From Betaproteobacteria bacterium (GTDB lineage: Bacteria; Pseudomonadota; Gammaproteobacteria; Burkholderiales; Burkholderiaceae_D): DNA of 53,608 nucleotides. Both the position numbers and the translations under genes were made by a program. The stretch lies in assembly GCA_016868055.1 (NCBI GenBank), contig VGHX01000010.1, forward strand, positions 1 through 53,608, in the 5' to 3' direction. Below the pieces are notes generated by a model. The model did not search any database. It was not told the DNA's origin and worked only from the letters and a program-made list of their open reading frames with translations. This document shows, one piece after another, positions 23,968-29,168 of the stretch (the first letter of the stretch is position 1; every line of letters begins with the position of its first letter).

Positions 23968-26874
23968 ATGGTGATGCAAGAAGCGAATGCGCTGTCTGTG
24001 CTGAACAAGCCGCTGCAGCGCTTATGGCAAGCAGTGCTGCTCTACCATAAGGGCCGACGAAATAGCGAGCTCGAGCAGTCCATTGTAAGGATTTTGATCG
24101 GCGCTATGCTGATGTACTACTTCGAGTACATCAGCGACTCGATCAAGATGGCGACTCCCAGGCTGAGTATCGATCTCTGGCTGGTGGTCGCTTTTTTCTT
24201 GTTTGCCTCCGTATCGATTTGCGTGAGTATTTTGCTCAAGCCGACTGAGGTACCGATCCGCCGCGCATTCGCCATTCTGTTAGATACCGGCGCCCTGACG
24301 CTATTGCTCACTGTCGGTGGTGTACACGCTGCGCCGCTGTACTTCCTGTATCTCTGGATAATTATTGGTAATGGCTTTCGTTTCGGGCAAAAATATTTAC
24401 TGATATCGCTACTGTTTACCCAAGTCGGGTTCGGTATTGTTATTTGGGTAGAGCCCTACTGGTCTGCAGAAAAAAATTTTTCTATAGGCCTATGGCTTGG
24501 CACGCTGCTGATTTCGATGTACTTCAATCTGCTGGTCGGCCGTTTATTTGCTGCATTAGACCAGGCCAATAGCGCCAACCTGGCAAAGCGCCAGTTCATC
24601 TGTGCAGTAAGCCATGTGTTGCGTACACCGTTGAATGCGATCATCGGTATGGTCGATTTATTAAAAAGTACCAAGATCGATCGCGAACAGCGCGACATGC
24701 TTGATTGCATGACAACGACCTCGCAGCTCATGCTCTCCCAGATTGAAGATGTGCTTGATTTCTCAAAAATAGAAGCCGGCAAAATGGGTGTCGAGCAAGT
24801 AGAGTTTGATCTTTACGCGCTCATAGAAAACATACTGACAGTATTTAGCTATCGAATAGACCCCAAAGCGGTGCGCTTGATACGGCAGATTGATTGTCAT
24901 GTGCCTCCCGTAGTGCGTGGTGATCCCCACCACCTTCGGCAAATACTGATTAACTTGCTGGGGAATGCAGTCAAGTTCACCGAGCAAGGCACGATTGCTC
25001 TCAGGGTTCGCCTACACACCTTGCGTGCCGAGGGTGCCGAGCTATCTTTTGCGATTGAAGATACGGGTATCGGCATACCGGAGCCGGTACAAGGCCAAAT
25101 CTTTGAGAGTTTCACGCAGGCAGACAGCGCCACTGCCAGGAAATATGGCGGTACCGGGTTAGGAACAACGATATGCAAGCAGCTGGTTGAGCTGATGGGT
25201 GGACGCATTGGCTTACGGAGCCGTCCCGGCGTGGGTACCGAGTTTTGGTTTGAGCTTCCGTTTGGTCGGGTTTTGGCAATTGACGATACCTGCCTGCTCA
25301 GCCGCGCACCGAGCATGATTATCGACCCTGAAGGTGCTTGCTGGCGTCTCGCCAAAGATTTGGCTTTTCTGGGAAAAGTACTGCCACGAACCGTTCGCGA
25401 TCTGGATGAGGCTGAGTCGGTACTGACGCATGCGAAGTTACATGGCGCACCGATCTCCATGATCTTTTTGCGTGTTTCGAAGGCCGGCCACGGCGATACG
25501 CAGTCTCTCCGTACTTGGATGGCTGAAGCGGTTCGGCGGCTCGTACAGTACGACAGTGATGGCTCATTGATCTTGGTTATGGTGCCAACTGCCGACTTAT
25601 CGATCGATGAGGCAAACTGCCTTGCGGAGCAGCTAGGATTTTTTACTGTGCTGCCTTTGTTATTTAGCCTGGATCACCTGCGGCATTTACTTCATGCGCA
25701 ATCAGCCGCACTTATACCTGAGGCTAGATTGCGTCACTCATCGTCAGTAGTCGTGCCCGCGGTTGGCACTGGTAATTCTTTTGTTTTTGAAGAGACATCA
25801 GATAGCCTCGGTCAGCATGATGATGGCTTATCGATATTAGTCGTTGAAGATAATCCAACAAACCGTAAAGTTTTACAAAAAATATTACAACGTGCTGGGC
25901 ATCGCTGCGTACTGGCAAATGATGGCGAAGAGGCGCTGGATATCATCACCACGCGTCATTTCGATGCCATGGTGATCGATATGAATATGCCGAAACTGCC
26001 GGGCACCGAGGTCGTTCGTTTTTGCAGAATGATGGGCGGTATTGTCGCCAAGACGCCTATCATCATTTTCTCGGCAAGCGTGACCCAAGATGCGCGCCAA
26101 GAGAGTTTCGACGCCGGTGCAGATGCTTTTATCTCAAAGCCAATCGAGGTCGCAAAGTTTTTGAAAACGCTTGATGATTTGGTTGAGCAGCGTCGTGATC
26201 ATACGAAGCAAGATGATGCCGAATTCGCATTAAACAAATCGGCTGTAGCAAAAGGTAAAACGGAAGCCAGTCAGCTAGTCGCTCGCAATTTGGCAGTCGG
26301 TCATCCGGCAACAGGTAATTCAACAACAGAAAGTACAGCAACCAGTAATCCACCAACGGGTAATCCACTCATAGTCGATCCAACATTAGGTACTTCCAAA
26401 AGCTTGCCAGAGCTAGTGAATACGGCCCTATCCAATCACACAACAGATAACGTTATATCCGGCATGATGAACAATGATGCGTTGGCGAATATATCTGTAA
26501 ACAGCTGTGTTTTGGATAAGAAAAAGTTAGGTAACTTGGAGACGATGAGTCAAGACCCGGAATTTGTGAGCGAACTCATTACCGAGTTTATCGATGAAGG
26601 CGAGCGCTTGATCGGTAACGTGGGCAAAAGCTTGCAACGATCTGACTTTAGTCATGTCGCCTCATCTATTCATGCCTTGCGCGGTGCCGCCCTCAGTATC
26701 GGTGCGGATGCACTCAAGGCGTTTTGTACCCATCTCGAGAAGTTATCGGATGAGCAGCTGTCGGCAAGAAAAGCGGAGATTCACAGACAGCTTGAGTCGC
26801 ACTTTCAGCAACTTCGGGCTGAATTAGTTTTATATGAACAGAGCCGACGTGGCCAGCGATTAACAGCATCTTGA
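23968..26874 (+). CDS. rpfC: RpfC-like hybrid sensor histidine kinase of DSF signalling
   Basis: A 968-residue membrane hybrid kinase. An N-terminal stretch with Glu-Leu-Glu-Gln-Ser-Ile-Val-Arg leads into about five membrane helices (residues 35-200), the RpfC-type sensor of DSF fatty acids. A dimerisation/phosphoacceptor domain follows with His216, then an HATPase domain with N box Asn-Leu-Leu-Gly-Asn-Ala-Val-Lys, Asp-Thr-Gly-Ile-Gly-Ile-Pro and Gly-Gly-Thr-Gly-Leu-Gly. A degenerate receiver-like segment (about 445-590) precedes a true receiver (from 621, Asp671), a Thr/Asn-rich linker (about 745-835), and an HPt domain with His902 in Ile-His-Ala-Leu-Arg-Gly-Ala. The residue after His216 is Val instead of the usual Glu/Asp. 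It is longer than Xanthomonas RpfC (about 726 residues). The start has only a weak AGG ten bases upstream. No RpfG-type partner is in the window. Confidence 0.85.
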   Translation: MVMQEANALSVLNKPLQRLWQAVLLYHKGRRNSELEQSIVRILIGAMLMYYFEYISDSIKMATPRLSIDLWLVVAFFLFASVSICVSILLKPTEVPIRRAFAILLDTGALTLLLTVGGVHAAPLYFLYLWIIIGNGFRFGQKYLLISLLFTQVGFGIVIWVEPYWSAEKNFSIGLWLGTLLISMYFNLLVGRLFAALDQANSANLAKRQFICAVSHVLRTPLNAIIGMVDLLKSTKIDREQRDMLDCMTTTSQLMLSQIEDVLDFSKIEAGKMGVEQVEFDLYALIENILTVFSYRIDPKAVRLIRQIDCHVPPVVRGDPHHLRQILINLLGNAVKFTEQGTIALRVRLHTLRAEGAELSFAIEDTGIGIPEPVQGQIFESFTQADSATARKYGGTGLGTTICKQLVELMGGRIGLRSRPGVGTEFWFELPFGRVLAIDDTCLLSRAPSMIIDPEGACWRLAKDLAFLGKVLPRTVRDLDEAESVLTHAKLHGAPISMIFLRVSKAGHGDTQSLRTWMAEAVRRLVQYDSDGSLILVMVPTADLSIDEANCLAEQLGFFTVLPLLFSLDHLRHLLHAQSAALIPEARLRHSSSVVVPAVGTGNSFVFEETSDSLGQHDDGLSILVVEDNPTNRKVLQKILQRAGHRCVLANDGEEALDIITTRHFDAMVIDMNMPKLPGTEVVRFCRMMGGIVAKTPIIIFSASVTQDARQESFDAGADAFISKPIEVAKFLKTLDDLVEQRRDHTKQDDAEFALNKSAVAKGKTEASQLVARNLAVGHPATGNSTTESTATSNPPTGNPLIVDPTLGTSKSLPELVNTALSNHTTDNVISGMMNNDALANISVNSCVLDKKKLGNLETMSQDPEFVSELITEFIDEGERLIGNVGKSLQRSDFSHVASSIHALRGAALSIGADALKAFCTHLEKLSDEQLSARKAEIHRQLESHFQQLRAELVLYEQSRRGQRLTAS

Positions 26875-26971
26875 TGGTACTCGGATCACCACAGAGGACC
26901 CAGTTCCATCAGGCGTATGCAATCTCTCGAGACAAGATGGATATCCATAACCCCACCGGAGATATTCATCA

Positions 26972-27619
26972 ATGAAAAACCTACTGAACGAAACAACCGA
27001 ACGGCATCGGCTTCAGATCGAGGCGCTACCTCAGCTGCGATCTATGCTTAGCGGTAATTACTCAAAAGCTTCTTATACCGAGTTTATCCTGCAGCTCTAT
27101 CCGATCGTTTCAAATTTTTGCCCATTAATGGCTGCAGCAGCTGGCCGATGTGCCGATTGTCATTCATCGCTGCGACATTATTTGTATGAGCATATTCAAG
27201 AAGAGCGAGGTCATGAGTCGATGGTGCTGACCGACCTTGATCAGTTGGGCTATCCCTCGGGTGATGTACCGAAACAACGCCCTAGTTCGGCAGTACAAGC
27301 CATGCTTGCCTATAACTACTATGCGATCGACCGCATTGACCCACATTCTGTACTGGGTATGATTTACGTGCTTGAGCTTACGTCTGCAGGATACGGCGCC
27401 AAGATAGCGCAATCAGTAGCGCAGGCAATTGATCACCCGATCGAACGGGGTTTTACTTTTTCACAATCGCACGCGAGCCTGGATGATGATCATCTTGCTG
27501 AACTAAAAGCCTTGATTCAATCGATTGAGGCATCTGATTATCAGCAAAAAATTATTGAAAGCATTGACATGAATTTCTATTTATTAGCCCGGATGATCGG
27601 CGCACTTCCCATAGGCTAA
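26972..27619 (+). CDS. Heme-oxygenase-like diiron oxidase (HDO) candidate in the DSF locus
   Basis: A 215-residue all-helical protein of the heme-oxygenase-like fold. A His near the N-terminus (His12, in Thr-Thr-Glu-Arg-His) recalls the proximal His of true heme oxygenases. However, the distal Gly-Ser-x-Leu-Gly-Gly motif is replaced by Leu-Thr-Ser-Ala-Gly-Tyr. The residues that bind two irons in the HDO superfamily (UndA, SznF, BesC) are all present and correctly spaced: Glu78-x2-His81, Glu135, and His167-x3-Asp171-x2-His174. A diiron oxygenase or oxidase is therefore more likely than a biliverdin-forming enzyme. It has a good ribosome binding site (CCGGAG) and starts 97 bases after the rpfC-like gene on the same strand, converging on the rpfF-like gene. 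The substrate is unknown; UndA acts on fatty acids, so the DSF signal or its precursor is an attractive guess. Superfamily confidence is high; function is inferred. Confidence 0.8.
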   Translation: MKNLLNETTERHRLQIEALPQLRSMLSGNYSKASYTEFILQLYPIVSNFCPLMAAAAGRCADCHSSLRHYLYEHIQEERGHESMVLTDLDQLGYPSGDVPKQRPSSAVQAMLAYNYYAIDRIDPHSVLGMIYVLELTSAGYGAKIAQSVAQAIDHPIERGFTFSQSHASLDDDHLAELKALIQSIEASDYQQKIIESIDMNFYLLARMIGALPIG

Positions 27620-27687: not shown

Positions 27688-27728
27688 AATCAGCCCTGTA
27701 ATTCTTGGGAAGAGTTCCAGGGCTGATT
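27688..27728 (-). terminator. Long hairpin terminator shared by the HDO and rpfF-like genes
   Basis: AATCAGCCCTG (27688-27698) pairs perfectly with CAGGGCTGATT (27718-27728). The inner AATTCTT/AAGAGTT arms extend the stem with one or two mismatches around GGG. On the minus strand a GATTTTTAT tract follows, so it best ends the rpfF-like transcript; it may also stop the convergent one. Confidence 0.8.
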
Positions 27729-27775: not shown

Positions 27776-27880
27776 AAAGGAAAGCCGAAGAAAGCAAGCT
27801 AAGTAAAGCTAAGTAAAGCTAAGGAAAGCAAGTCTAAGAAAGCAAACCTAAGAAAGCAAACCTAGGAAGGCAAACCTAAG
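27776..27880. repeat. Degenerate tandem repeat running into the rpfF-like stop codon
   Basis: Units related to AAAGCAAACCTAAG occur about three times at 14 bp, preceded by shorter forms (TAAAGCTAAG twice) and a 15-bp variant. The last unit contains the TAG stop (27876-27878) of the rpfF-like gene. The array therefore forms the start of that gene's 3' untranslated region, ahead of the terminator. Confidence 0.85.
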
Positions 27881-28838
27881 CAGCGATTCGCTCGTCCTCT
27901 TCAAATTGCTGTGTTGATTCGGTGTAGCGGTAGCCGGCATGCTGAACTGTCTGCGCCTTGAGCAATCGGCTCATCATTCGTAAGTCTTTATCTTGAATTT
28001 TCAGTGCGGCATCGACCCACATCGACGCAATATCCGAGAGCTCCTGGTAGCTTATCGGCCAGATATGTTTGCGGCAGTCATAGATAGTACGCATGCCATT
28101 GAGCTGGTGATGATGCTTGCGGATCCAGTTTTCTACTGTGCGCTCACCTTCGCCCACGGGCGCCACGATATCAACGACGCCTAATTCAGCCAGCTTTTCT
28201 GCAGTATAGATATTGCCACTCAGGAGCATGGTTTCGGCTTCACGTGGGCCGATACGGCGAGCCAAAAAGCTATACGCTCCCATACCAGGAAACAGGTTAA
28301 ACAGTATTTCAGGAAAGCCGAGCCTTGTACCAGCCTCGGCGATAATCACATCGCTCGCCAGCGCGAATTCAAAGCCGCCGCCCAGCGCATCACCCTGAAC
28401 GAGCGAGATTGTTACCGTAGAGGCTTCATAGCCTCGAATCCTGGAATAGATGCCATCAACACAATACATCGCATAATTGAGCAAACCTTCGCGATCTTTT
28501 TCCCGAATCAAGTTGAGGAACAGCCTCAAGTCGCCGCCAAGATTGAATATCTCCGCTCGCCGCGAGGCAATCACGGAGTAATCAACCGGAACCCACTCAT
28601 GCCCACATACCGTCTGCCCTTGATGGCTGTGCATCTCGCTAAACAAATGGTGTAGCTCTTCAATCATGTTTTGATTGAAGCAAGGGATACCTATCGGCTT
28701 CATGTAAGTCCAGAGCGTGCGGAATCTGGGGTCGTAACTCACATCAACCTGTTGCATCATGCGGCGGGGCCAGGCTGCTGGCGCGGGTGCATCAGAGAGC
28801 CGTTTTGCATAGCTGACTTTTTCGGTGGTCATCAACAT
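27876..28838 (-). CDS. rpfF: RpfF-like DSF synthase (enoyl-CoA hydratase/crotonase family)
   Basis: A 320-residue crotonase-fold enzyme. RpfF dehydrates 3-hydroxyacyl-ACP and releases cis-2-unsaturated fatty acids (the DSF family of quorum signals). Both catalytic glutamates are visible 20 residues apart, as in Xanthomonas RpfF: Glu157 in Ala-Leu-Gly-Gly-Gly-Phe-Glu and Glu177 in Leu-Gly-Phe-Pro-Glu-Ile-Leu-Phe. Further RpfF marks are Gly-Gly-Asp-Leu-Arg-Leu-Phe near residue 101 and Asn-Leu-Phe-Pro-Gly-Met-Gly-Ala after Glu177. The ATG at 28838 follows AAGGAGA by six bases; the open frame extends eleven codons further without a site. It is convergent with the rpfC-like/HDO pair. An ordinary enoyl-CoA hydratase is unlikely given these motifs and the neighbour. 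Confidence 0.9.
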   Translation of the reverse strand: MLMTTEKVSYAKRLSDAPAPAAWPRRMMQQVDVSYDPRFRTLWTYMKPIGIPCFNQNMIEELHHLFSEMHSHQGQTVCGHEWVPVDYSVIASRRAEIFNLGGDLRLFLNLIREKDREGLLNYAMYCVDGIYSRIRGYEASTVTISLVQGDALGGGFEFALASDVIIAEAGTRLGFPEILFNLFPGMGAYSFLARRIGPREAETMLLSGNIYTAEKLAELGVVDIVAPVGEGERTVENWIRKHHHQLNGMRTIYDCRKHIWPISYQELSDIASMWVDAALKIQDKDLRMMSRLLKAQTVQHAGYRYTESTQQFEEDERIAA

Positions 28839-29168
28839 GGAGTTCTCCTTAATTGGTAGGACTGCAAACATGTCTGCTTGATTTTTCCTAGAACTTTGAG
28901 CGATGCTGTTTGGTTTTGCTCAATATTTTCAAGCGCGATCTCAGTTTAGGAAGTTCGCGCTGCGATTGAATAGCTATTAAGGTTTTTTTTCGAATAGCTA
29001 ATTTTGCTTGCCTTGAATTTTAATTTTTGAATATCAAAAAAGGTTTTAACTGAGAGCGTGAAATAAGTGATATCGATAGCTGATCGAACAGAAAGCAATG
29101 AGGTAGGGTCGGCGGTGTTTTTCAGGCATACTCACTGACAAGCTCTAAAAATTTAAATCAGGAAAGAT
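28839..29168. promoter_or_regulatory. AT-rich divergent regulatory region between the rpfF-like gene and carbonic anhydrase
   Basis: A gene-free spacer of 330 bases, clearly AT-rich. It contains a 7-bp inverted repeat AGCGCGA/TCGCGCT (28932-28938 and 28955-28961) and a direct repeat GAATAGCTA (28968-28976 and 28992-29000), whose copies start 24 bases apart. It also contains T- and A-runs. These are candidate operator sites for either divergent gene. I could not fix promoter boxes with confidence. Confidence 0.5.

Follow-up and report, generated by a model that had tools for sequence, protein, structure and literature searches.

A predicted HDO-type dimetal oxidase gene between rpfC- and rpfF-like genes as a candidate accessory of a DSF-type signalling module

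Introduction

Variation among DSF signals is ascribed mainly to the acyl substrates that the synthase RpfF receives. In the Xanthomonas rpf layout, as given in the available text of PMC4504480, rpfB-rpfF is convergent with rpfG-rpfH-rpfC and no heme-oxygenase-like dimetal oxidase (HDO) is present, in agreement with an earlier note on the DNA studied here, by which described rpf loci are not known to contain such an enzyme. The same text has RpfF making cis-2-enoic acids and, by thioesterase action, freeing saturated and hydroxylated acids. The HDO enzyme UndA is a fatty-acid decarboxylase, whose medium-chain substrate the earlier note had also named, and the ligand set is of the 3-His/3-carboxylate (3H/3C) type in UndA and CADD and 3H/4C in SznF (available part of the review PMC13108848). 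CADD and the Nitrosomonas-type self-sacrificing pABA synthases are likewise HDOs by sequence. A literature search for rpfF together with UndA found no paper, and none pairing an HDO with rpf genes stood among the matches listed, most subscription papers lying outside the search.

Results and Discussion

Gene layout of the locus

The window, that is the whole 53,608-nucleotide stretch of DNA analysed, carries an HDO-type gene between genes resembling rpfC and rpfF, with the following features:

23968..26874, forward strand: rpfC-type hybrid histidine kinase gene, 968 aa, with HisKA, HATPase_c, receiver and Hpt domains
26958..26961, forward strand: GGAG, read from the sequence as the probable site of ribosome binding for the HDO gene
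26972..27619, forward strand: predicted HDO-type dimetal oxidase gene, 215 aa, ATG start, stop included
27688..27728, no strand: inverted repeat, 19-nt, 89% complementary, with a 3-nt loop, in the space where the HDO and rpfF genes converge
27876..28871, reverse strand: rpfF-like gene for a DSF synthase of 331 aa, running towards the HDO gene

The upstream gene lies on the same strand as the HDO gene and is separated from its start by 97 nt; the GGAG motif stands ten bases ahead of the HDO ATG. Pfam matches to HisKA, HATPase_c, Response_reg and Hpt, together with a receiver that matches the solved RpfC receiver (3m6m_D, 1.6e-23), assign the product as a probable RpfC-type kinase. The downstream product matches RpfF (3m6m_A, 2.9e-55), and its residues E168 and E188 align with the catalytic Glu pair of Xanthomonas RpfF, which we take to be E141/E161. 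It falls under the cut-off of the NCBIfam model SgnlFctrSynRpfF (235.8 bits vs 550) and passes the broader crotonase model NF006452 (355.1 bits vs 177). The placement of the HDO gene between RpfC-like and RpfF-like genes, claimed in the earlier note, is thus borne out by domain and structure matches, and the reading frame and six putative ligand residues that it had listed are present exactly where it put them.

The locus resembles that of Xanthomonas in its rpfF gene convergent with an rpfC-type kinase gene, in the RpfF catalytic Glu pair and in the RpfC-like receiver. In contrast to Xanthomonas, an HDO gene stands between rpfC and rpfF, and the genome of the window (G000) has no match to HD_5, the RpfG-type HD-GYP domain, in a draft of 195 contigs that is 99% complete; the same genome has two EAL and three GGDEF matches. 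Thus, the RpfC of this organism probably works without an RpfG. The inverted repeat between the convergent genes is a possible two-way terminator. Promoter and terminator scans supported no signal, with 7 sites against 7.3 expected for the former and 9 against 6.0 for the latter. Imperfect short tandem repeats (AAAGCAAACCTAAG-like) occupy window positions 27777-27874, beside the 3' end of rpfF.

Family assignment and putative metal ligands

Membership of the HDO superfamily, for which the earlier note had proposed a profile search, is established at the level of sequence by a match of the window protein to PF14518 (2e-16, 60.8 bits, above the curated cut-off of 28.9). The candidate metal ligands are E78, H81, E135, H167, D171 and H174, a 3H/3C set, and the protein is predicted to be a dimetal oxidase that would bind its metals through these residues and activate O2. 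All six are invariant in the 36 aligned cassette members (alignment A2) and in all 68 RpfF-carrying locus copies, duplicates included. They are likewise invariant in a sister HDO group found away from rpf genes (34 copies; in a single copy the last three are gapped), and thus mark the superfamily and not the rpf-linked clade. The marks of that clade are instead Cys-50 (66 of 68 copies) and Asn-201 (68/68), residues which recur in the sister group in 2 and 1 of the 34 copies, respectively. Position 12, presumably the column of the proximal heme His of heme oxygenase, is His in 5 of the 36 members, which would fit a loss of that residue.

Other identities were considered for the window protein. 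A canonical heme oxygenase was rejected on the PF01126 score (21.7 bits), just under the cut-off of 23, and a CADD-type pABA synthase on the NCBIfam TIGR04305 score (21.5 bits, cut-off 200). For a phage origin, no PHROGs match was obtained, and six pattern stretches in viral contigs were none of them related.

In a search of the PDB with a profile of the 36 cassette members, the best match was 3dde (2.1e-20), to which no role is assigned, followed by MboA (9ypi, 1.1e-5), UndA (4wwj, 2.2e-4), CADD (1rcw, 3.1e-4) and a pABA synthase (8va9, 3.8e-4). The nearest annotated solved relative by sequence is therefore MboA, of mangotoxin biosynthesis, and UndA is no closer than other HDOs, since 3dde and MboA score better and CADD about equally. 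UndA shares the fold family by profile and the 3H/3C ligands, yet its sequence similarity to the window protein is very low. The six ligands of the window protein fall on E103, H106, E161, H196, D200 and H203 of the UndA chain, presumably E101, H104, E159, H194, D198 and H201 of the literature, the chain numbers being two higher. Glu68 of the UndA chain aligns with Asn or His at position 48 of the rpf-linked HDOs. The earlier note had described the ligand set as that of both UndA and SznF; the UndA half of this comparison holds in the alignment, while the SznF half is corrected by the review, which in its available part gives SznF as 3H/4C (PMC13108848). CADD and the pABA synthases, although CADD is also 3H/3C, differ in that the window protein scores far under the CADD model and no folate genes stand beside the HDO gene in the window.

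Conservation beside rpfC and rpfF

Some HDO match was found in 29 of the 96 relatives searched, and matches to both rpfC and rpfF flank the HDO in sixteen loci (L001-L016, own included), 14 from the genus of the window and 2 from other genera. A scan of genome contigs seeded with the cassette alignment returned 36 loci, a seeding that favours the rpf-linked HDO clade though not any neighbourhood, and 33 of them hold both rpfC and rpfF matches. In the remaining three, L052 and L065 have rpfF only, the contig ending before the HDO, and L066 has rpfC only, the contig ending inside the HDO. The matches include Noviherbaspirillum massiliense JC206, N. galbum and Noviherbaspirillum sp. Root189, and most of the others are MAGs. 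Two MAG records with this environmental rpf locus (L054 and L066) are titled Bordetella parapertussis, titles that look mislabelled.

An order-level sample of 399 genomes, with thresholds of 1e-25 for RpfF and 1e-15 for HDO, contained RpfF in 72 genomes and HDO in 59. Every HDO match of at least 245 bits has an RpfF match no more than 300 bp away (7/7), whereas none of those of at most 166 bits has one nearby (0/52). The rpf-linked clade is therefore tied to rpf, yet it occurs in only 7 of the 72 RpfF-bearing genomes and is absent from the other 65; the HDO is accessory. In class (369 genomes) and phylum (398 genomes) samples, apart from the match of the window's own genome, G566 and the already known G313 were alone in exceeding 180 bits. 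G566 belongs to another order; its clade-like HDO (253 bits, with an FCP motif) adjoins ABC-transporter and MAPEG genes, and its RpfF is on a different contig, beside an rpfC-like gene.

Of the 21 genomes in the genus of the window, own included, 17 have RpfF, in truncated form in G002, and 14 have an HDO of the rpf-linked clade; none has the clade HDO without RpfF. Three have RpfF and no HDO: in G009 rpfC and rpfF are whole, in G006 the contig ends at that point, and G002 (L170:6971-8847) lacks at once the 3' part of rpfC, the HDO and half of rpfF, as though a single deletion had removed them. Elsewhere, G043 keeps rpfC and rpfF without an HDO. G349 also has rpfC and rpfF without an HDO; on the RpfF tree it falls within a group of HDO carriers, and the absence is likely a loss.

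After deduplication (L134 repeats L051 and L142 repeats L065) and length limits, 102 HDO matches gave 69 rows and 107 RpfF matches gave 66; G566 and Methylibium PM1 are in neither tree. In the quick HDO tree a branch with SH-aLRT support of 100 splits 40 rows from 29. All 40 rows of the first clade derive from rpfC/rpfF loci; the locus includes RpfF in 38 of them and is cut by a contig end in the other two (L049 and L066), while RpfF occurs in none of the 29 sister rows on the stretch fetched, mostly about 1.5 kb on each side. On the RpfF tree, 3 changes suffice to account for the presence of the HDO, where shuffled labels need 21.5 on average. HDO and RpfF distances are correlated over 38 pairs (r = 0.915, with none of 2000 permutations as high), a correlation that shared vertical descent alone could yield. 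The HDO-rpfF pairing spans many genera and is found in dozens of betaproteobacteria, so the adjacency to rpf genes on which the earlier note had staked its reading is widely kept.

Gene order and overlap with rpfF

The HDO gene lies behind rpfC and on its strand in all 37 measured intervals, with a gap of at most 116 bp, measured to the match start, in 29 of them. The rpfF gene is usually convergent and is co-directional in Noviherbaspirillum (L036, L037 and L040). Another order is found in G313, where the HDO gene precedes rpfF with a 4-bp gene overlap and the pair faces a hybrid kinase gene. Similarly, on a Methylibium petroleiphilum PM1 plasmid, one of two plasmid records examined out of 23 matched, the HDO gene overlaps an RpfF-like crotonase gene by 4 bp, and no kinase is annotated in the 14.6-kb stretch, for which the gene table is incomplete. 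The two HDOs are 68% identical, so the 4-bp overlap may be one event. Three gene orders keep the HDO beside rpfF, and the overlaps suggest that its partner is the synthase rpfF rather than the receptor. The HDO-rpfF pair of the PM1 plasmid is followed by a gene (L177:8678-9520) whose product is annotated as a ferritin; this protein matches FA_desaturase_2 and AurF weakly and may be a further oxidase of the module.

Enzymes sharing the rpfC-rpfF interval

The rpfC-HDO interval is long, at 918 to 1039 bp, in six of the 37 cases, and in five of these a fatty-acid hydroxylase gene, on the opposite strand, separates rpfC from the HDO. The inserted genes, including one from an HDO-less relative, are as follows:

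L047:5024-5956, L055:5074-5940, L062:4935-5885 and L133:1902-2771, strand opposite to the HDO: PF04116 fatty-acid hydroxylase
L063:5057-5935, strand opposite to the HDO: fatty-acid hydroxylase by similarity
L064:4312-5217: PF00487 desaturase with His boxes, taking the place of the hydroxylase of its relatives
L127:5454-6722: ketoacyl-ACP synthase gene, between rpfC and rpfF

The ketoacyl synthase is present in one of the 13 HDO-less rpfC-rpfF intervals examined, the other 12 being 288 bp or shorter; four of the 20 RpfF/HDO stretches (L136, L138, L141 and L146) stand outside these 13, having no rpfC-like gene beside rpfF. The 468-bp rpfC-HDO gap of L042 holds no evident gene. All three kinds of non-HDO insert are lipid enzymes, by raw counts in a small set. 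The space between rpfC and rpfF may tentatively be viewed as an exchangeable slot for signal-tailoring enzymes, with RpfF and the HDO conceivably making a new oxidised class of DSF. If so, the slot enzymes (HDO, membrane hydroxylase, desaturase and ketoacyl synthase) would provide each lineage with a private dialect of the fatty-acid language.

Proposed role of the HDO

An HDO coupled to RpfF would most simply act on an acid that RpfF releases, and we lean, with some reserve, towards a dimetal oxidase that is accessory to the DSF-type module and oxidises a medium-chain fatty acid released by RpfF. In the proposed mechanism a diiron (or Fe/Mn) site would use O2 to oxidise either the finished cis-2-enoic acid or the acids, saturated or 3-hydroxylated, that RpfF sets free by thioesterase action, and the desaturated, hydroxylated or decarboxylated product would be read as a signal by the cognate RpfC. 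Metal binding, O2 activation, the fatty-acid substrate and the effect on signalling are all inferred in this scheme. The proposal of the earlier note, an HDO that oxidises the DSF acid or its precursor, is to this extent partly supported, and the data suggest that bacteria with the HDO-rpfF pair chemically modify their DSF signal in an undescribed way. If an oxidase were dedicated to the product of the neighbouring synthase, the signal would be tailored once made, and this could explain signal specificity between species. Signalling would also become connected with O2 and iron, and an HDO clade so far uncharacterised would gain its first role in vivo.

The enzyme could instead serve signal turnover or by-product clearance. 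It would then make no new signal and would oxidise free fatty acids either to remove signal or, like RpfB in Xanthomonas, to offset what RpfF releases as a thioesterase. According to the available text of PMC4504480, RpfF does release both saturated and hydroxylated acids in free form, an activity that RpfB works against; dodecanoic acid is consumed by UndA, according to that of PMC13108848. UndA-type C3-H abstraction should moreover suit saturated or 3-hydroxy acids better than a cis-2-enoic acid, which has no sp3 C3-H. However, the hydroxylase, desaturase and ketoacyl synthase that share the slot are of biosynthetic kinds, which favours tailoring over clearance, and the 4-bp overlap with the synthase gene fits joint production. 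Clearance is unlikely, and slightly less probable still is an HDO that acts on a non-fatty-acid such as an amino acid, yielding a separate metabolite, and that is merely co-located with rpf. The closeness to MboA and the ABC-transporter and MAPEG neighbours of the clade-like HDO of G566, in place of rpfF, are consistent with such a substrate, and amino acids or their derivatives are usual for HDOs of known substrate (available parts of PMC13185094 and PMC13108848). Against it stand the retention of the HDO beside rpfF in three gene orders and the slot shared with fatty-acid enzymes; the examined loci showed no genes for amino-acid biosynthesis.

A non-catalytic or sensory role, in which the HDO would bind RpfC or RpfF or report O2 or iron to the RpfC pathway, is very improbable: its constant position behind rpfC, mostly at short distance, and the known binding of RpfF to the RpfC receiver (3m6m holds both) are countered by the invariance of the complete ligand set and by the Methylibium plasmid, where the HDO is coupled to rpfF with no kinase in the annotated, incomplete gene table. 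A chance neighbourhood was discounted in view of the adjacency of the HDO to rpfC/rpfF recurring across the loci, the order sample and the tree.

The sister HDO group

The sister group also matches PF14518 and is about 30% identical to the rpf-linked clade. In contrast to the latter, its neighbours are an AMP-binding ligase and an SDR, with no rpfF. It was checked as a possible source of false linkage to rpf: three order-sample genomes have a sister HDO on the contig that bears RpfF, with about 295 kb between the closest two, and in the others the two are on different contigs. The operon of AMP-binding ligase, HDO and SDR was located at L161:3585-6471, L157:3759-6680 and L178:3544-6441, and may represent another HDO pathway, on an activated acid. 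In Citrobacter this operon stands behind a thermostable hemolysin gene.
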